A DNA stretch of 64,000 bases from Erodium maritimum (taxonomy: Eukaryota; Streptophyta; Magnoliopsida; Geraniales; Geraniaceae). Under the pieces are notes generated by a model. That model had not been told where the DNA came from. It searched no databases and saw only the letters and a list, made by a program, of their open reading frames with translations. The DNA is taken from positions 7,516,001-7,580,000 of the forward strand of contig OY997588.1 in NCBI GenBank assembly GCA_963921825.1. The letters are read 5' to 3'. Each line of letters starts with the position of its first letter. The first letter of the stretch is position 1. The position numbers and the translations under genes were made by a program. Of the stretch, positions 13,390 to 29,637 are shown one piece after another.

Positions 13390-15077
13390 TGTTGGGTCTC
13401 GAGGTAGGGTTGGAGATGAACCAACTCGCAGCGGAAAATCAATGAAAACCAAGAGACAATTAGAACCATGAAACAACTAACAAAGAATGGATTAACAAGA
13501 GAAAAATTCAGCACTAGTTCTTACCAAAACAAGAACACCGGTTAACGAATGATTGGCTTGAGTCTCCAAGACGCCTACGTATCCACATGGGAATCAAAGC
13601 CACGTAGTTCTTCTCTTTGAGGACTCAAGAACACAAACATGGAGGTGAGAGCTTGCCAAACCCGAAATGGCCATGGAAGAGGGAGAGAAAATGTGTTTCC
13701 TATTCTTGTCTTGTCTTTGTTATGTTGAAAAAAGATGACTTAAACATAACAAAACCCATACTTGTCCAACTAAAGGCATGGGACAAGTATGGTGTCAAGT
13801 AAGGTGTAAATAGGACAAAGTATGGCAAGACAAGATTGGGTTAGGTGGTGAATCACCAACACCTTAATCCTTGTCTTGCTTACTTAGTACTAATTAATCA
13901 AGACTTGATTAATTAGTTCCATGGGCCTTGGTTGCATGGGCCTTTCATGGGCCTCTTGGAACATGGCCCGTGACCATTTCCAACGAGGTCCCGTGATTCG
14001 CTCATCGCCTCCATGCCTTCCATACCGGAAATGTCCAACATTATCCGACGCGATCAATCCCAAGACTCCAAGCCTTGTCTCGATCCGTAAAGTCCTATTC
14101 ACTTACGGGCACATGACCCAAAACCCAGTTTTGGTCATGTCCCGAGACAACTCCCTTTTGGCCATTCTCCATAAATGTGTCAATGAGTTTCATCCTCCGG
14201 TGTGACCCTTAGGTTTATGCATGTCAATAGATCAACGTAAAATCCCATTTTACTTGATCCTATTTAAGTGGCAACTAACGAGACTTTAGTATTGCCTGAC
14301 ACTACATAACGAATCGACCCTGTCGATTCTAACCTTTCCGTCGTCCCTGTCATTATCCTTTTATCTCCGATATCCTGATTGAGATAAGGCATAGAGCCGT
14401 CATCCTTATTATTCTCAATCACCGTTCCTTGATATGTGAGATGACTGAAGATATGATACCCAGTATCATGTGCATGGCCATGCTATTCTTCCAGTCACTC
14501 TCGATCAAGTGGCCGAGAACCGATATCTTTCCCATACCTTAGTATGAGGGATAAATCCCTTAGCCGTCTTTCGTGTCACTCATGTAGCCCGTCCCCAAGC
14601 CAATCCTGGCCGTTATGGAAGCCCTGTTACGGACAACGTTAGGCTCAGGTCAAACTCAGTTGTTGACTACATAGCGATCACAAAGACTCCTTGGTCTAAG
14701 GATACATGACAAGCTACAACACTGAATATGTTCATGACTTAATCTATGGCACATATTCAGGGCGGGTCGTCCAATATCATGTCCCACATGATATCTATGA
14801 TCAGACTCCGGAATCCCATTCCAATGACTAACAGAACGTAAGCCATAAAGAGCCATCTTTCATACTAGTCGCTTCTAGTGAAGCTTTGTTGACTAGGGAC
14901 CCATCGAGTGTGATCTATCTCGATCTATGGTTCTATTCGCATGGTGGGCATAGATCAGAGCACACATCGATATATTACTCCAACACATAAGTAATATAAA
15001 GCCGCTTTAATTTTATTGCTAACGATGATATATACATTTGGACATTTAGGATTGAACTACGGGCACTAAGACTAACA
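13390..15077 (-). repeat. 3' LTR of the copia element
   Basis: 1,688 bp, starting TGTTGGGTCTCGAGG and ending ACTAACA on the plus strand. I found two differences from the other LTR, both transitions: A/G at about 13647 versus 20421, and C/T at about 14026 versus 20800. Confidence 0.95.
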
Positions 15078-15087
15078 ATCTCCCACT
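15078..15087 (-). other. Polypurine tract
   Basis: On the minus strand AGTGGGAGAT lies directly against the 3' LTR, the normal position for plus-strand DNA priming. Confidence 0.75.
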
Positions 15088-15169
15088 TGCCCTAGTTCCA
15101 ATCTAAACTCCAATATGTCCCCATCGACTTTACATGTCTAACATGTTCAGGCAGTGACACTGCCTTAGT

Positions 15170-15430
15170 CAAAGGGTTGGCTATGTTATCATCTGTTGCA
15201 ATATCGGTTATCTTCACTTCACCTCAGTTCAGTATTTATCTGATGAGGTGGATACGCCGCAGTACATGTTTGGATTTGTTATGCGATCTAGGCTTTTAGC
15301 TTGCGCAATGGCCCTTGTGTTGTCGCAAAATGGATTCACCGGACTAGATGGGTTTTTAATTACACCCAGTCCTGCCATGAATTTCCAAATCCACATAGCC
15401 TCCTTAGCTGCCTCTGCAGCATCCATGTAC
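15170..15430 (-). pseudogene. copia RNase H remnant
   Basis: The minus-strand peptide has AAKEAMWIWKF, PFCDNTRAIAQAK and decayed flanks, matching the end of a copia pol RNase H domain (typically EAVW...K and CDN..AI..AK). The frame is lost before the expected C-terminus. Confidence 0.75.
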
Positions 15431-15664
15431 TTGGCCTCTGTCGTAGATTCGGCAATGGTATCTTGCTTTACGCTTTCCCAGCTAAAGCTCTTCCATTCAG
15501 CGTAAACACATATCCTGATTGACTTCTAAAGTCATCTGGATTTGTCTTGGAAAACTAGCGTCTACTCATCCTTCGACGACTAGTTCAGCATCATCTTTCC
15601 CCCGGGTTAGAATGATGTCTACTGGTACAACATAAGGCTTACGAGACGTCTGGTCTCATACATG

Positions 15665-16652
15665 TCATGGCATATATGATCGATCCTGCCCCCAGGCGCA
15701 TAGGATTCTCATCATCCTTTTCAGCTCATCAGGTGTCTTAGGACACTGAGTCTTGCTGAGATGAATGCCATGACTAGTGGGTAAGAGTCCTTTCTTTGAA
15801 TCGAGCATTAAGAACCTACTCAATGCCTTGTTCACATAGGTTCCCTGACTTAAATCCAAGACCCTCTTGGTGCGATCTCTACATATTTTAATCCTTAAGA
15901 TATGAGAAGCATCGCCTAAGTCCTTTATTGAAAAACACTTCCTCAACCAAGCTTTAGTCTCGTGCAAGGTTGGGATGTCGTTTTCAATGAGAAACAGAAA
16001 GGTAATATTGCTCCCACTAGCCTTCTTATAAACGCAAGATTCATCCTCGTTCTTGATTAAGCCAAATCCAATTACAGCTTCATCAAAACGAAGGATCCAA
16101 CTCCGAGAAGTTCGTTTCAATCCATAAATGGATTTCAACAACTTATAAATCTTTCCTTTATTCTTCGGATCGTCAAAACCTTTGGGTCGAGACATACAAA
16201 CGTACTCAGTCAAATTTCCATTTAGGAAAGCGGTTTTGACATCCACTTGCCATATCTCGTAATTATGATACGCAGTTATGTCAAGAAGAATTTGGATCGA
16301 TTTTGACCATAGCCACTAAGGAGAAGGTTTCCTCATAGTCAATCCATTGGATCTGCCTATAACCTTTCGCCACCAGTTGAGCTTTGTAGGTCAGAGGGTT
16401 GCCGTCCATGTCCATCTTCACCTTGAAGATCCATTTGCATCCTATGGTCCTCACACCATTGATGGGATCAACCGGTTCCCAGACTCGGTTGTCCGACATG
16501 GATTGCATTTCCTCCCTCATGGCTCCCAGCCATAACTCAGAGTTGGGCCCATACACGACTTCCTGAAAGGTGGCTGGATCATCGTGATCCACCATGACTT
16601 CATTGTCACCTCCGGATACCATATCTTGGAGGTGGAAGATTGATCCTTTCAA
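15665..16652 (-). pseudogene. copia reverse transcriptase remnant
   Basis: Two open stretches cover RT. 16281-16652 holds ELWLGAMREEMQSMSDNRVWE and VRTIGCKWIFKVK; 15665-16246 holds MDVKTAFLNGNL and KSIYGLKRTSRSW. The catalytic YVDD box is missing: the reading runs ITFLFL directly into IENDIPTL, where intact relatives have YVDD and neighbouring residues between these segments. The two stretches are also separated by a frame break, so this RT cannot be active. Confidence 0.85.
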
Positions 16653-16740
16653 ATCGCCTTGGACCTTCCGGAATTGTAACAGGAATTGGTTCTTACTCTA
16701 CGACAATCTCTGGCTCCTTTCTACTGGGTTGCCAATTGGT

Positions 16741-17977
16741 TTAGACAGATCTGTACCATCCTGAATTTCTTCGAGATGCACAGTCCTCCCAATGACGTCT
16801 TTGGAAACAAAACTTCTTTTCCATAAAGACCCCACCCCAAGCGACGAACACCATGTTCTCACTGGGATTGTAGAAATAGTATCCCCTTGTTGCTTTGGGA
16901 TACCACACGAAGGTGCATATCTCAGATCTTGGTTCGAGCTTAGTCGAAACCAAATGTTTCACATAAGCCTCGCAACCACAAATCTTTAGGAAGGACAAAG
17001 CGGGCATCATCCCGTACCATTTTTAAAATGGTGTCCCTTCCACACCATTCGTCGAAGCCCGATTCACTATGAATGCGGTCGTCTCTAGAGCAAAACCCCT
17101 AAAAGAGATTGGGAGATCAGTCCAACTAATCATGGAACAGACCATTGTCTAACAATGTCCGATTTCTCCGTTTGGCTACACCTTTCAACTACAGTGACCT
17201 AGGAGGAGTCCATTCCAAAAGGATCCCATTCTCTTTTAGATGATCTAATAACTCTGTGGTCAAGTATTTTCCACCTCGATCCAATCGAAGTGCCTTAATA
17301 CCTTTGTCGAGCTGGTTTTCTACTATAGTCTTAAACTCTTTGAATTTATCAAAAGCTTCAGACTTATGTCTCACCGAATAGACATAACCATATTTACTGT
17401 AATCATCAGTAAATGTGATAAAGTAGCTAAAACCCCTCCTGGCAAGTGAACTTATTGGTCTACACACATTCGAGTGTATCAGCCCCAATAATTCACCCGC
17501 CCTTTCATCGCGATCGATAAAGGGCACTTTAGTCATTTTGCCCATCAAACAAACCTTGCACCTATCGATCGAATGGAATTCGAATGAACCTGAAAGCCCG
17601 CACTTCTGAAGTGCTGATAGGCGCTTCTTGTTTATGCGACCCAAATGACAGTACCATAACAGAGTTAGGTTTAAATCATTGGATTTAGACCTCTTGGTAT
17701 TAACGGAATATATAGAACTTGAGGCATTGTTACCCATATCTAATATGTACAATCCTCCAACCATGTCAGTACTGGTATAAAACATATCATTGCATAGAAC
17801 ATTGAAAACTCCATTTCCAATATTAACATTATATCCTTCCTTGTCAAACACGGATACAGATATAATATTCCTACTAAGAGTAGGTATGCAATATACATTA
17901 TACAATACTAAGACAAGGCCTCTTGGCAAAGCAAGACTCATGGATCCTACAGCAGTTGCCACAACTCTGAGGTCCAT
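16741..17977 (-). pseudogene. copia integrase remnant
   Basis: The gag-pre-integrase and core domains are readable (17189-17977), followed by the C-terminal linker with ICGCEAYVKHLV and GYYFYNPSENMVFVA (16741-17010). Against the copia consensus, the first catalytic Asp is Asn (HSNVCRP), the middle Asp remains (FTDDYSKYG) and the Glu is Lys (DRGGKYL). The zinc-binding His pair also appears lost (LWYCHLGRINKK). The two catalytic changes fit G-to-A on the coding strand, as 5-methylcytosine decay would give. Confidence 0.85.
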
Positions 17978-18039
17978 TTCGTGCTTTCCAAATCTCTCCT
18001 ACTTTCAGCCACCATATATTAGTGCATGTGTGAGATTCA

Positions 18040-18606
18040 GTCATGGTATCTAATACCCATGAATCTTTGGAAGTAGAGAGATGTAGCTCTATAGAGTTAA
18101 TACCGATTGAAGGCACGGTCCCACCGCCCTTCCTTAGATCATCCAGGTTTCCTGATGAAGGCGCAGTCTTACTGCCCTTCTTCAGATCATCCAGGCTATT
18201 TGATGAAGGCGCAGTCCCACTGCCCTTCTTCAGATCAGCCGTGAACTTCCTGTAATCCCGGTTCCAATGACCAGGCTGTTGGCAGTAGAAGCAGACATTC
18301 TCAGGTGTCTCATCTTTCCTGCCAAGTGCGCATGGGCCCAGCCCATGCCACTTCCAATTCCCTTGTTGACCATCAGAATATCCTTGGATCCCAGATCCCT
18401 GAGATATTCTTCTCAGCAGTTAATGACACTTCATGTAACTCTGATATGGTCTTAGAGACAGCCTTGTCAAGGACATATTCTTTGCGTTCAGACTTGAGGA
18501 CTATCCTCAAAATTCTGTACCAGTCCAAATAGTTTGTCCCATTTAGCTTGACCCTGTCAAGAATGGTTTTTAATGACAAACTATTAATGTTCGCTGAATT
18601 TGCCAT
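18040..18606 (-). pseudogene. copia gag remnant with damaged zinc knuckle
   Basis: ATG at 18606 starts MANSANINSLSLKTIL and LNGTNYLDWYRILRI, the copia gag N-terminus. The frame ends at 18373 and the middle of gag looks deleted. Further on, CFYCQQPGHWNRDYRKF is a CX2CX4HX4C knuckle whose last Cys is Tyr. A spacer repeated three times and a protease-like segment (SWVLDTMTESH, altered from the usual DTG or DSG context) follow. Confidence 0.8.
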
Positions 18607-20149
18607 TTGATCTACAACAGATAAAATTCAATCAGTAAACTGAATAAATTTTATGAAGATCAAGCTTAAACACCAACAATCGATTCTAAACCTTTAGAAT
18701 CTGAAACCAAGATCCTTGATTCACTCGATTAAGCTGAACTAATGCTCACCACTTAATCGAGCTATGTAGGTAGGACTCCATCCAATCACATCTAATGTGA
18801 CTCTTGGCTAGGGTATGCACTTATGTACACGGCTTACCCTATCTGTTACCCTAGCTCAACCTCAGGCTGAGAATCGTAGTCGGGTCCACCAATTTTCAAC
18901 TATGGCCCGTCACTATGTAGGTGCTCCGCTAATGCGCACGACACCCACATATGTCGTCCAAACCTACTACCCCGCTTTCCCATGGATGCTCCGCTAATGC
19001 GCACGACACCCATAGGACGGGGAGGTAGTAAGGTGTTGATAATTGGGAGGTATCAGACATGACCCGTTTTTACTTGTCCGGTTGTGTTTAAAACTTTGAC
19101 ACATCCTAGATGCGATGAGCACATCAACTACATTCCAAATGCAATGATGCCTCAAATTACATCCAATGTAATTCTTCCTTCGAACCCGTCAACTACATCC
19201 AATGTAATGACGATTCTAAGGGTTCACACACAAGGATTAAAATTCCAATTTTATCTTTGCATGTGAGGTGATATGCTCGGTAAATAAAGTTAAGCATGCA
19301 ATTCTAAAGCACATAGAATTAATCATGCATAAACTAAACCAAGCATAAAGCGATAAATGTGCACATAATAGCCCCCTAAACTAACTCCCACTAGCTTCTT
19401 GAGCTCCACCGACTCCAAGCCGATGCCAACACCCGAAAAGCCACCAAATGACCTTTTCGCCCTTTCTTCATCTTGAGTAAAAAAATACAATTTAATACAC
19501 GACTCGCAGGTCGGGAATAAATAAATATTACAAACAAGTGGTTCGACGACCACACCTTGAAAGAATAATTACACGCTAACACTAACGGCTCGCAGGCCGT
19601 GAAAAGCGATAAATAATTAAATCGAGCTCGGGGCTATTATGTACACCATGCCAACATCACATCACACATCGTGTTATCAAACAAGCATGTTATCAAACAT
19701 CATGTGATTTTCCGGTTTTAATTAATAGCCAAGTTTCGAAATTTTTTGATGCTCGGTTTATCGAAACCGTTCAAAAATGAAACTTTTGAACATTTGATCT
19801 TCGAGTTCATCATGACGGTTCCAAACTCGTCATAACTAACAAAACGGTTTAGCCTTGGCATATCAACCATCCAATGGTCATGCTTGGCCTAGCTCCGTCC
19901 AACGGAGCCCCGTTCGGTCCCGGTTTCGGCTCCCCGAGAGTCCCGCTCCCGAGACCCGAAAAATCAAATTTTTTTTCAAAATTTCCAGATTTGAAATAAT
20001 TTTCAAAAAATCATTTTACATGTATTAAATCCATAAACAATAATTTAAAACATGTTATCAAACAATTTTGCAAAACAACATGCCAAAAACGAAACTTTCA
20101 AGCAAAACCGAAACTTTGAACACCGTCTTGTGAATCCCGAAGGTAGCAC
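18607..20149 (-). other. copia 5' leader, non-coding
   Basis: About 1.5 kb between primer binding site and gag with no open frame. It contains a 27-bp direct repeat (TGCTCCGCTAATGCGCACGA core) at 18922-18948 and 18987-19013, and several copies of ATCCAATGTAAT-like sequence near 19.15 kb. Confidence 0.7.
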
Positions 20150-20162
20150 GGCTCTGATACCA
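20150..20162 (-). other. Primer binding site (initiator-Met tRNA)
   Basis: Minus strand TGGTATCAGAGCC, one base inside the 5' LTR, complementary to the 3' end of plant initiator methionine tRNA. Confidence 0.9.
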
Positions 20163-20163
20163 C

Positions 20164-21851
20164 TGTTGGGTCTCGAGGTAGGGTTGGAGATGAACCAACT
20201 CGCAGCGGAAAATCAATGAAAACCAAGAGACAATTAGAACCATGAAACAACTAACAAAGAATGGATTAACAAGAGAAAAATTCAGCACTAGTTCTTACCA
20301 AAACAAGAACACCGGTTAACGAATGATTGGCTTGAGTCTCCAAGACGCCTACGTATCCACATGGGAATCAAAGCCACGTAGTTCTTCTCTTTGAGGACTC
20401 AAGAACACAAACATGGAGGTGGGAGCTTGCCAAACCCGAAATGGCCATGGAAGAGGGAGAGAAAATGTGTTTCCTATTCTTGTCTTGTCTTTGTTATGTT
20501 GAAAAAAGATGACTTAAACATAACAAAACCCATACTTGTCCAACTAAAGGCATGGGACAAGTATGGTGTCAAGTAAGGTGTAAATAGGACAAAGTATGGC
20601 AAGACAAGATTGGGTTAGGTGGTGAATCACCAACACCTTAATCCTTGTCTTGCTTACTTAGTACTAATTAATCAAGACTTGATTAATTAGTTCCATGGGC
20701 CTTGGTTGCATGGGCCTTTCATGGGCCTCTTGGAACATGGCCCGTGACCATTTCCAACGAGGTCCCGTGATTCGCTCATCGCCTCCATGCCTTCCATACT
20801 GGAAATGTCCAACATTATCCGACGCGATCAATCCCAAGACTCCAAGCCTTGTCTCGATCCGTAAAGTCCTATTCACTTACGGGCACATGACCCAAAACCC
20901 AGTTTTGGTCATGTCCCGAGACAACTCCCTTTTGGCCATTCTCCATAAATGTGTCAATGAGTTTCATCCTCCGGTGTGACCCTTAGGTTTATGCATGTCA
21001 ATAGATCAACGTAAAATCCCATTTTACTTGATCCTATTTAAGTGGCAACTAACGAGACTTTAGTATTGCCTGACACTACATAACGAATCGACCCTGTCGA
21101 TTCTAACCTTTCCGTCGTCCCTGTCATTATCCTTTTATCTCCGATATCCTGATTGAGATAAGGCATAGAGCCGTCATCCTTATTATTCTCAATCACCGTT
21201 CCTTGATATGTGAGATGACTGAAGATATGATACCCAGTATCATGTGCATGGCCATGCTATTCTTCCAGTCACTCTCGATCAAGTGGCCGAGAACCGATAT
21301 CTTTCCCATACCTTAGTATGAGGGATAAATCCCTTAGCCGTCTTTCGTGTCACTCATGTAGCCCGTCCCCAAGCCAATCCTGGCCGTTATGGAAGCCCTG
21401 TTACGGACAACGTTAGGCTCAGGTCAAACTCAGTTGTTGACTACATAGCGATCACAAAGACTCCTTGGTCTAAGGATACATGACAAGCTACAACACTGAA
21501 TATGTTCATGACTTAATCTATGGCACATATTCAGGGCGGGTCGTCCAATATCATGTCCCACATGATATCTATGATCAGACTCCGGAATCCCATTCCAATG
21601 ACTAACAGAACGTAAGCCATAAAGAGCCATCTTTCATACTAGTCGCTTCTAGTGAAGCTTTGTTGACTAGGGACCCATCGAGTGTGATCTATCTCGATCT
21701 ATGGTTCTATTCGCATGGTGGGCATAGATCAGAGCACACATCGATATATTACTCCAACACATAAGTAATATAAAGCCGCTTTAATTTTATTGCTAACGAT
21801 GATATATACATTTGGACATTTAGGATTGAACTACGGGCACTAAGACTAACA
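20164..21851 (-). repeat. 5' LTR of the copia element
   Basis: 1,688 bp, the same length as the other LTR and nearly identical to it. On the minus strand this is the transcribing LTR upstream of the primer binding site and gag. Confidence 0.95.
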
Positions 21852-24861: not shown

Positions 24862-27800
24862 ATGAACTCCACCACCAACTCAGGGGACACCCGCATCGAC
24901 GTCAACTTCTCCGGCGAAGAGCCGCCAAGCCATGCCACCGCCGTCGCCACCACCACACCCTTGCTCCTCGAACTAAGACCATCAAAACCATCCCTCTCCG
25001 ACGAGCTGCGCCAGTTCCGAATAGGCCTCAAATGGTGCGCGCTCGACCACTCCACGTGGACCGGCAGGTGCATATCCTACGCGGCCTTCCTCCTCCTCGC
25101 CGTCGTCATCCCCGCCGTGAGCTCCGTCGTGATCCACTCCCCCTCCGGCGACGACCCCCTCTCCATCAACAAGCTGGTCCAGGTCCCGGAGTCCGGCCTC
25201 GCCGCCGTGGCCTTCTTCACCCTCTCCAGCTTCTTCAGCCGCTACGGCCTCCGCCACCTCCTCTTCCTCGACGGCCTCCGCGACGACTCCGCCTACGTCC
25301 GCCGCCGCTACACCCGCGAGCTCAACCGCGCGTTCCGGTACATCGCCTTCATACTCCTCCCGTCCTTCTTTGTGGACGTGGCACACAAGGTGATGTAAGA
25401 TTAGGGTTTCTAGACCTATATCTGATTTTTCTTCTGGCTGCCTCATAGCCTTATTGTTTTCTTGTGTGATAGTTCCTTGAGGTTGTTTTCTAGTTGTACC
25501 GTTCCTGTTTCTTGAGATTCCGGTTAAGGAATGCTCTCTGTTGTATTCACCCCCACCCCGATTCTAAGAATCGGTTTTAATATACCTGTTTTGTTGATTA
25601 AAAAAAGGTGATGCTGTTCTCGAGGGCGAGGGTGGAAGTGCCGTACGTGGGAGGCGGGGCTCCGGTGATGTTCGTGGCGGCGGTGGCGTCGTGGGTGTAC
25701 CGGACGGGGGTGTTCCTGCTGGTGTGCGTGATGTTCAGGGTCACGTGCGAGCTGCAGATCCTGAGGTTCGAAGGGCTGCACGAGATGTTCGAGGGGTGCG
25801 AGTCGGACCCCGGTGCGATATTTGAGGAGCACGTGAGGATTAAGGAACAGCTGTCGGCGACGAGCCATCGGTACAGGCTGTTTATTATTGCTTGTATGTT
25901 TGTGATCACGGTGAGCCAGTTTGGGGCCTTGTTGCTCCTTCTCTCTTCCAGAATGCGCAAGAATTTCTTCAATTCCGGCGATCTCGTGGTAAGTCTAAGT
26001 CAATTCATATATATACCTTGTAAACTACAATATATACAAGTAAAAATAGGTTCTACGGGTTGCTACATGTCTGCCCGTCCACTTTTCGTTTATTGTTAAA
26101 TCCTAACTAAATAAATGTAAATTGTCATGTAGTAACGTTGACCAGCAAGAGCACCCATACTAGGGTTTAATCCGTGACTAATACGTCATTCATTAATCGA
26201 CCTCAAATACAGAAAATGCGTCCCATCCATTGGTCTAATTACGGTCAATGAATCCTTAGGCCTAGTTGTTGTGGGGGTTCGACCATGACTCCCAGTACCA
26301 AACGGTTATATGGCTATATAGCGAGATTGTTAATTATTTCAACAAAATCTTATTTATTAGACTTGATAAATGTAACACCAGAGTCTATCAGTCTAATAAA
26401 AATAAAAACAAAAATAATGATCCCCGACATTAAACTGATTCCTGGGTGCTCTAATAAGTTTAGCCTCCCTCCGCTCGTAGCGTGGCGCTCCGATACACGG
26501 TCTATTTACGATTCATGAGTAACACCTGTAGATAGTGTGAATGAATAGTTTGTTATGGAAAACCCAGTAATAAAACCTTAATAAGTAGCAGTATTTTTTT
26601 CGATCCTTAAGGTTTTTTACTTCTCCTTCCATTTCTGGATCCTCCCTCAGAGTGAAGGTAATTACCGGTCAACCTCCACCCAGAGAAATAGGACTTTGGA
26701 ATGTTCCCTCTTGGAGGGAACGATGGGGCGACCGTAAGGCCTACAAAGTGTCATCGTTGGTTTTCATGAGCCCACTAGGGTATCGCGAAGTGTCTTAGAG
26801 AAGTCACACCTCCGTCCTTAAGGATCAAATACTATCCGACCCAAGCGTCCTCCTTTCCCCGGAATACTCTTTGGCATCATGTCTAGACACCACAAGCTTA
26901 AACGAGTCGAGATGGGGAAAGTCATTTGGATCTGTCGCTCATCAAAAGAATACGGAACCACCCTCTACACTGTCACCTAAAATAGCCGGGTATATTATTA
27001 TAGAGCCAGCGTTCTGAATGTCAACGGAACTTTGTCTTGTTTTTTTGTTTATTTCTAATAATTATACAATCATTTTTTAATTATAAAATTATAATGATGA
27101 AATATCATATTTATGCTAAAAAAGAATTCGGTAAGTATACATTGTGGATTTTTTTTTATCAGCAGTTTTATTTATTTATATAAATACCAAGACTTCAAAG
27201 TGAAGTACAAGGCCAAGGGCGAACCCTCACAAACATAATCTTACAAACAAAGGAAACCCCAGTAGGGGTCCCTAGCGCAAGTAGCTTGGAGTGTAAGAAA
27301 CTAAACCGAAACTAGAACTAGGATGGGTCTAACAATCCTATACCCCGATTTTCAACCATGAAGTAAACTCAGAAACTCGGAGAGAATCGGCCAACCAGCA
27401 CCGTCTCCAAACAAGGGTTCCCAACAAGGGGAACCCAACCAGAACAGGTCTAGAACCAAAATAGCAATACAAGTACAACACCAACAACCTATTACAAACC
27501 AGACCAACAAAGGGCAACCTAACAAAGAAACAACAAACCAGACCCAAAAGAAAAAAAAAGGAAAAAAAAACAACAACACCAACGCCCCTGCGCCACATCA
27601 AGCAAAAGAGATCCAGCTTCAAACACCCTCGATCACTCAACAATGAACAAGTCCGGCCACCACCGGCCGGACCGAGAGAACCACCCACAACAAAGCAAGT
27701 TCACGAAGAGATGTTAAAGCAGCAATCAAAACAGCACCCCAACGGACCTCAAGAGAAAACCGACACCCAACTCCCCACCCCCACGAAACAAGAATCAACG

Positions 27801-29637
27801 AATAAGAAAACTCCGACCTTCCTTTACAACTACACCACCCTATTACCCAATAACCTTATAGAGGCATCAGGACAGTTCTCCCTCACCCCGACGAGCCCGG
27901 TCAAACCCCCCAAATCCCAACCACCAATCTCCCACTCGCCGTTAGGCAGTTCTTAATATTGGCCAACACCAAATATTGAGCCTCATCCCCAGAAATGGGA
28001 AGAGGAGAGGAAGATGTGGAGAGGTACAGAAGAGGAGATCTGGATTCGTACGGGGAAAGGGAAAACGAGGACAGATGAGATCTATTCTCTCAAATCTCAA
28101 CAGATTCCGCCGAAGACCAACATCTACCGACGACCCAAGGAGAGAGGCCAATATCAAACGATAAGGCTAACAGATCTGATCCGGAGGAGTACTTTGTAAG
28201 GAAAGGATTTACAGAAGACTTACCGAGCACCCCATGTCGAAGGGAAGAAGAGAGGCCGCTTCCGCCAAACAGGCTCTGAAGACCCAAGATGAAGCCACAC
28301 CCGCCTCAGATCCGAAGCTTCCACACCAAAGCCACTTGGCTATAACCCCTCGTCGCTCCCGCGAGGCCCGGAAACTTCCGAGAACAAGTGTAGATGAACG
28401 GATCTGGAGAAGAAAGACCACCAGGAGGAAACAAGAATCGGAGATAAGGAGAAACACAACGGCAAACGGCCAAAGCCCGTCATCTACCCGAGAAGAAAAA
28501 CGTCCCACACGCTCTGGAAACGTCGCCACCGATAGAGGAAGGAACCTAAGAGGCCAGAAGAGGGAGGAGCCGCGACAACGCCCACCAATCAAGCCCCCAG
28601 ACCCAGATCTAACCCCAAAACTCTCCCACAGTGTGAAAACCCACACCAAAGACCGGCCAAAACTGGGAAAACGACGATGAAGACATAGAGAGAGACGGGC
28701 TGGAAAAGAGCCTCTGAACCCAAATCGAAGCAAACGGTGAAGAGGAAAGGTAAATAAAGCACGGAAACGTAAGAGGGAGGGCCACCGGTGAATTTCTGGC
28801 GACGAATCGCCGAGAAAAACACCAGCGACCATGGATTTGAACTAGGGTTAGAAGCGGGCGGAGGAGAGAGGGGAGAGAGCCTTGAGAGAGATTTTGTGTA
28901 CGTTAGATGACATCCTTATACATTGTGGATTGATGTCATAATTATATTTGATTTTTCAGTCAGGCATTTTCATCATGGTTTTGAGTATCTTAAAATAGTT
29001 TCTTGGTCAATGTGTTTTTCATTGTATTTTGTTTTTATTGGTTTCTTGCCCTTTTTTTTTTATAGAAATTGTGGATTTATAAATGGTGGACTGATGAACA
29101 CATACGATACGTGTACTGTGTACAGGTATGTTCAGCGGTTCAGCTAAGTGGGTTCTTCTTGGGGTTACTGGGAGCGGCGAGAATCACACACAGAGCTCAG
29201 GGGATCGCAGCCATTGCCACCAGATGGCATATGCTCGTTACAACCGCCGTATCTGACCACCGGAAAGCCACCGTCCTCGTGCAGCCCGGACCCGGAGCCG
29301 ATCAAGACGGCGCCTCTGATTCTTCCTCCGACATATTTGTCACAGTCCCCTCTTCGCCCGACACATCCTCCTCCCAGTTCCATACCAGACAAGCTTTGGG
29401 TCAGTATATATACATACTTGTTTCTATAAATTACAAATTAATGTTGATTAATTGAATAGGACAAGAATGTAACTTGTGAGTGTACATTTATGTGGTGCAG
29501 TGGCATATTTGTCGCACAACAATGGAGGGATCACTCTGTTCGGGTTTGCGCTGGATCGGGGTTTGCTTCACACTCTCTTTGCCTTCGAGTTCTCTCTCGT
29601 TCTGTGGATCCTCAGTAAGGTTGTGGTGCTGTCTTGA
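24862..29637 (+). CDS. DUF3537 / plant gustatory receptor-like (GRL) membrane protein
   Basis: Four exons reconstructed from GT-AG borders: 24862-25389, 25608-25988, 29126-29399 and 29501-29637, giving 439 residues, the usual size for the family. The N-terminus (residues 1-60) is polar; hydrophobic segments include AAFLLLAVVIPAVSS, FRYIAFILLPSFFVDV, FMFVAAVASWVYRTGVFLLV-like, LFIIACMFVITVSQFGALLLL and the last one ending ILSKVVVLS. This fits a seven-helix topology. DUF3537 proteins have been proposed as distant relatives of animal gustatory/odorant receptors; their plant role is poorly known. Intron 1 is a retroposon inserted in what was one exon; if it is not spliced, translation stops at codon 179. 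Intron 2 (3.1 kb) carries an antisense LINE. Confidence 0.85.
25396..25604 (+). mobile_element. 5'-truncated LINE/SINE tail inserted in the GRL coding exon
   Basis: About 209 bp ending in TTTTGTTGATTAAAAAAA, a 3' end typical of plant LINEs. It is flanked by AAGGTGATG at 25387-25395 and 25605-25613. Removing the insert plus one TSD copy rejoins codons for VAHK and VMLFSRARV. The TSD contains AAG|GTGATG: the left copy offers a GT donor at 25390 and the right copy an AG acceptor ending at 25607, so excision as a 218-nt intron restores the frame exactly. Confidence 0.75.
26270..27030. other. Intronic island of unusual composition
   Basis: Inside GRL intron 2 this stretch is less AT-rich than its surroundings and has no long ORF. 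It resembles non-coding organelle-type DNA (for example GGGGCGACCGTAAGGCC), but I cannot assign it. It could equally be an old transposon. Confidence 0.25.
27151..28916 (-). mobile_element. LINE-type retroposon, antisense in GRL intron 2
   Basis: A perfect 15-bp TSD, TATACATTGTGGATT, lies at 27136-27150 and 28917-28931. A T-run after the left copy marks the poly(A) tail, so the element is in minus orientation, antisense to the host gene. The 3' end (AAGTCTTGGTATTTATAT region on the minus strand) is LINE-like. Minus-strand open stretches (28209-28832, 27338-27688) are low-complexity and show no RT, endonuclease or clear ORF1 domain. Confidence 0.8.

Follow-up and report, generated by a model that had tools for sequence, protein, structure and literature searches.

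Work on maize Dissociation by Giroux in 1994 and on plant catalase genes by Iwamoto in 1998 is cited in a review that covers introns made by transposon insertion into AGGT sites. The review tabulates 35 events of this kind from Oryza, Drosophila, Oikopleura and Zea, and describes intron creation by AGGT insertion as not demonstrated in vivo (PMC3443670). A large survey of introners reports no land-plant families, and among land plants and animals places introners in only two animal groups (PMC9860276). For duplicated genes of rice, two of five gained introns are stated to resemble transposable elements (PMC1779517). No LINE-made intron in a plant was recognised in the open-access literature searched, which does not imply absence from print. 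New introns can rarely be followed back to their origin, since the sequence that gave rise to them decays; at the locus described here the source family, the insertion site, the duplication and the ancestral exon are all still legible.

Results

Structure of the DUF3537 gene

The window, a stretch of 64,000 nt from Erodium maritimum, carries a gene for a DUF3537 protein on its forward strand. DUF3537 proteins are described as plant relatives of insect chemoreceptors (PMC9998090). Translation of the unspliced frame from the ATG at 24862 gave ...VAHKVM followed by a stop, two codons past the left boundary of an insert, as the original prediction had stated. When positions 25390-25607 were left out the frame ran on as ...VAHKVMLFSRARVEV..., a continuous DUF3537 protein, and the predicted restoration of the frame by removal of 218 nt was thus reproduced. 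Counting the insert as an intron gives a gene of four coding exons and a product of 439 amino acids with no further defect seen; its introns elsewhere are GT-AG and the remaining frame is entire. Residues 1-304 of the joined frame matched PF12056 (E 6.1e-91; 305.6 bits against a curated cut-off of 25), and a search for solved-structure relatives of the protein returned none up to E 1. The features are as follows, with the basis of each assignment in brackets and slashes marking splice or insertion points.

24862-25389, + strand: DUF3537 coding exon 1, ending at the insert, codons 1-176 (sequence, paralog alignment)
25387-25395, + strand: left copy of the target-site duplication, AAGGTGATG, holding the candidate donor AAG/GTGATG (exact repeat)
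25390-25607, + strand: candidate new intron, 218 nt, phase 0 (frame, site enumeration, paralogs)
25395-25400, + strand: competing donor GTAAGA, where the duplication meets the element (matrix score, site enumeration)
25396-25604, + strand: 5'-truncated LINE-type retroposon tail, sense, ending in an A-run (genome copies, alignment)
25605-25613, + strand: right copy of the target-site duplication, AAGGTGATG, giving the candidate acceptor AG at 25606-25607 (exact repeat)
25608-25988, + strand: DUF3537 coding exon past the insert, in which the competing acceptor AG ends at 25624 (sequence, paralog alignment)
25989-29125, + strand: family-shared intron after residue 303, phase 0 (paralog alignment)
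29126-29399, + strand: DUF3537 coding exon (sequence, paralog alignment)
29400-29500, + strand: family-shared intron after residue 395, phase 1 (paralog alignment)
29501-29637, + strand: final DUF3537 coding exon with the stop codon (its end calculated from a coding-sequence length of 1320 nt)

A separate element was observed at window positions 13390-21851, where two direct repeats of 1688 bp (13390-15077 and 20164-21851) differ by 2 mismatches, have TG...CA ends and are bordered on both outer sides by CAAAA. From this structure it is probably a very young LTR retrotransposon.

Insertion and target-site duplication

Two exact 9-bp copies of AAGGTGATG lie 218 nt apart and bracket a 209-bp insert in the DUF3537 exon, which bears out the proposed retroposon insertion with its flanking duplication. 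The insert shows the traits of a LINE-type insertion (an A-rich 3' end, 5' truncation and a target-site duplication) as well as that of an AGGT-site intron, in that the duplication holds AG/GT, as had been noted beforehand, and precise excision restores the frame. At the 5' junction the family reads TTGTAAG and the target gives ATG, a 2-nt microhomology in which TG is assignable to either; given this ambiguity, the alignment puts the true duplication at 7-9 bp. The restored frame alone proves little, because a cut at the same point in both copies of any target-site duplication restores the original sequence. The informative coincidence is the AG/GT inside the duplication. AGGT was present in 30 of the 1312 nine-nt windows of the DUF3537 coding sequence, a proportion that gives no clean probability since the case was picked for this very coincidence.

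The source retroposon family

The plant's own genome (763 Mb in 40 contigs, the window lying on contig C1) was searched with the insert, and matches were obtained at 36 or more places including the insert itself. The closest other copy among the matches listed was 89% identical. Of 36 matches, 30 were taken as loci, 25 of which were aligned (19 ingroup copies including the insert, and 6 more distant ones), with 5 short matches left out. Other copies of the family extend about 1 kb upstream of the 5' end of the insert and 11 of 19 inspected copies start with GGTTTCTAG, and from this common start the element length is put at about 1.2 kb (in L012, locus bases 500 to 1711). A full-length SINE was rejected on the same two observations. 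Of the 'LINE/SINE tail' in the original prediction, the LINE-type part therefore stood, as a 5'-truncated copy, and the SINE part did not. Exact repeats of 10-18 bp adjoined the A-tail in 10 of the 19 inspected copies, and in the other nine they were shorter than 10 bp or absent. No open frame longer than 241 amino acids was found on either strand in four neighbourhoods of about 8 kb around family copies, from which we infer that the family probably depends on another LINE for its mobility. On these features it looks non-autonomous and about 1.2 kb long.

Four copies (L016, L021, L024 and L026) carry about 9-30 copy-specific extra bases between the duplication and the common start, and the common start is itself an inverted repeat (GGTTTCTAGAGAG...CTCTCTAGAAACC). 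The same DUF3537 gene holds a second retroposon, which lies in antisense orientation within the intron that follows residue 303 (window 27136-28931). Two copies of TATACATTGTGGATT (27136 and 28917) enclose about 1.77 kb. The tail of this element on the reverse strand, CTGCTGATAAAAAAA, resembles the family tail of the exon insert.

Paralogs of the gene

A family search located eight other DUF3537 loci in the genome, and the DUF3537 protein was spliced-aligned to all of them. Seven were usable; the eighth, L046 (G000:C1:98708000-98710000), is a fragment with stop codons that stops short of the site and is apparently a pseudogene piece. An intron at the same codon boundary in orthologs from distant species had been named as what would refute the proposed gain; within this genome, codon 176 was uninterrupted in all seven usable paralogs. 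An intron after residue 155 was present in all seven and absent without trace from the window gene, where the exons are cleanly fused. The tree joined the window gene with L045 (support 100, both long-branched), and since L045 has the intron after residue 155, its absence from the window gene looks like loss. The absent intron and the candidate gain lie 21 codons apart in the same gene.

The intron after residue 303 is common to the window gene and six of the seven usable paralogs, the paralog without it being L039 (G000:C2:26466000-26469500). The intron after residue 395 was found in all seven, with a doubtful GC donor in L042 that reflects the choice of the aligner. The segment from K176 to P188 is of equal length in 6 of 7 paralogs. 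The window protein keeps 55 of 78 columns that are identical in the seven paralogs; the same kind of count gave 55/91 for L045 and 55/55 to 55/60 for the other six, and by these counts the window protein is among the divergent members of the family. When the exon part downstream of the insert was used in a DNA search, only the gene itself matched, with no spliced retrocopy.

Splice signals of the candidate intron

Splice sites were scored with a matrix built from 21 introns of the DUF3537 family at three shared positions, two of the introns coming from the window gene itself. The matrix excludes the doubtful GC-donor intron of L042, an extra short intron of L040, the intron at residue 58 of L045 and the new intron. 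Because the 21 introns occupy only three shared positions, the -3 and -2 columns are family-biased, and the ranking of sites by this small, biased matrix is read as a lead. The donor in the duplication, AAG/GTGATG, scored 1.99, below 20 of the 21 family introns, the only lower donor being the window gene's own after residue 395 (-0.14). The acceptor in the duplication, TTGATTAAAAAAAG, scored -9.71, below all 21 family introns; the earlier caution had been that an A-run in place of a strong pyrimidine tract leaves the efficiency uncertain. Five nt downstream of the duplication donor, the competing donor GAT/GTAAGA scored 6.71, with 9 of the 21 family introns higher, and the exonic acceptor ending at 25624 scored -1.51. 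The top-scoring of the 40 GTs in 24870-25600 was an exonic GT at 25338 (7.65), which pairs in frame with 25624 and 25630.

Enumeration of GT or GC donors (25300-25619) against AG acceptors (25385-25719) yielded 26 pairs that keep the frame and contain no stop; 11 of these use GT. The full 304 residues to 25991 were obtained only with the pair 25390/25607. The pair 25395/25624 was in frame and stop-free with 300 residues, the residues LFSR being lost (read by hand), and the donor at 25395 joined to the acceptor at 25607 gave a frameshift.

Plant intron recognition favours a contrast in A+T and T content between intron and exon. The candidate intron is 62% A+T and 42% T, and the flanking exon parts are 35% and 42% A+T. 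TTGAT and TTAAT near its 3' end fit the loose branch-site pattern YTNAY. The predicted RNA fold of the insert region was unremarkable (z -0.53; 54 of 200 shuffles folded as well).

Age of the insertion

Private substitutions, counted among the 19 ingroup copies only, were most numerous in the insert, with 10 in 212 bases and 7 of 214 in the runner-up. In both trees the insert also had a longer terminal branch than any other ingroup copy (0.107 with FastTree, 0.081 with IQ-TREE); that of the distant copy L030 was longer. Such a branch is an upper bound on the age of the insertion, because an unsampled source lineage may carry part of it. The insertion is probably not fresh, and the original prediction that the locus is seen close to the event runs counter to the substitution count.

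The chance that a dead gene keeps an intact frame was simulated with an assumed indel rate and without indels. At 4.7% divergence this chance was 0.0017 with the assumed indels and 0.24 without, and at 1% divergence it was 0.26 and 0.74, respectively. An unspliced gene should decay, and the age of the insert therefore favours splicing, moderately; the argument from intactness shrinks if the insertion is young.

Recurrence in the genome

A pattern of the family tail followed by AGGT with G three bases after the GT, which the window's own site does not fit, gave 97 genome matches (two of which overlap) versus 12 for a reversed-pattern control. Of the 97 places, 30 were inspected together with flanks of 1.5 kb. 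Five of these 30 showed exact repeats of 15-26 bp, and 25 were left out with an upstream repeat of 10 bp or less or none; one of the five, L080, is doubtful, as its repeat occurs four times and the outermost two were joined. At the five empty sites, judged by stop-free length alone, there was no evident coding frame (78 stop-free codons or fewer, versus 347 for the site in the window). The 30 of 97 places read gave no sign of recurrence in the manner of introners.

Discussion

The arrangement of the locus suggests the following course. LINE-type machinery would have put a 5'-truncated copy of about 209 nt of the approximately 1.2-kb retroposon, in sense orientation, into the site CAC/AAGGTGATG, and target-primed reverse transcription, a step suggested by the structure of the insert, would have duplicated AAGGTGATG. 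Because the duplicated stretch holds AG/GT, a GT came to lie at the left edge of the insert and an AG at the right. Target-site duplications in target-primed insertion often start with A or AA, so that insertion at AAG/GT would automatically supply an AAG acceptor. The spliceosome would then excise 25390-25607 at these predicted sites and leave the protein unchanged, which would account for the survival of the DUF3537 gene, and codon 176 would be followed by a newly gained phase-0 intron. It is directly observed that a member of an identified family inserted here, that its target site is duplicated, that the frame is restored exactly, that all seven usable paralogs lack the intron and that the remainder of the gene is intact; that the precise new intron 25390-25607 is spliced is a reading of the sequence to which we give a probability of roughly 0.47, above that of any single rival.

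The weak splice sites of the duplication are a reason to consider that the insert stays unspliced and that the early stop leaves a null allele or pseudogene, either dead or segregating. With seven other usable family members, possibly redundant, such a loss could be tolerated, and use of the strong GTAAGA donor with the acceptor at 25607 would throw the gene out of frame. Set against this are the remaining frame and the other splice sites, intact in a gene whose insert has more private substitutions than any other of the 19 ingroup copies, and the circumstance that the duplication happens to hold AG/GT. We regard a null allele as unlikely, though with an appreciable share of the probability. 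The same GTAAGA donor would serve a functional gene if, partly element-derived as it is, it were joined from 25395 to the exonic acceptor CTGTTCTCGAG at 25624, an imprecise gain that keeps the frame and is free of stops but loses LFSR at the end of a membrane-segment-like stretch (residues read by hand). The two sites outscore those of the duplication (6.71 and -1.51 versus 1.99 and -9.71), and imprecise gain through transposons is mentioned in PMC3443670. However, the matrix behind these scores comprises 21 introns, all from three shared positions, the acceptor at 25624 sits in a GC-rich exon, and the constant length of K176-P188 in 6 of 7 paralogs indicates that a loss of four residues may not be neutral. 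On balance this pairing seems improbable, a little more so than a null allele; if it is used, the locus would show that an intron was gained imprecisely, at the cost of a slight change to the protein.

An ordinary inherited family intron later invaded by a LINE is by far the least credible reading. A moved intron is imaginable, since the intron found after residue 155 in all seven paralogs is missing 21 codons upstream of the insert, but the interval between the AAGGTGATG copies is wholly retroposon, position 155 is cleanly fused and codon 176 is uninterrupted in all seven usable paralogs. Intron sliding or an old intron is likewise disfavoured by the gene structures of the paralogs.

For the precise new intron, a wider claim can be put forward tentatively, with the odds tilting somewhat against it: that a LINE-class retroposon of a seed plant made a working intron with both splice sites drawn from the target-site duplication, and that gene function was kept through up to 5-10% neutral divergence. 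If this is true, LINEs would be a steady, low-rate source of introns in plants. Intron gain via a transposon at AGGT has already been described, and the present case adds a testable member with a readable history.

Rice offers a comparison within plants. The locus resembles the rice cases in being a plant gene that gained an intron; the two transposon-like rice introns show similarity to a Ty1-copia element and to the transposon Rim2-M341, unlike the LINE found here (PMC1779517). With introners it shares a mobile element as the intron, and some introner families also take both splice sites from the insertion site or its duplication, whereas introners form families with many intron-making copies, most of them with at least one DNA-transposon trait (PMC9860276). 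It is also like the AGGT-site transposon introns, in which the duplication provides AG/GT on the left and AG/G on the right and the coding sequence is unchanged (PMC3443670). The locus differs from them in that the element is a 5'-truncated LINE-type retroposon, an A-run directly precedes the acceptor and splicing is a prediction.
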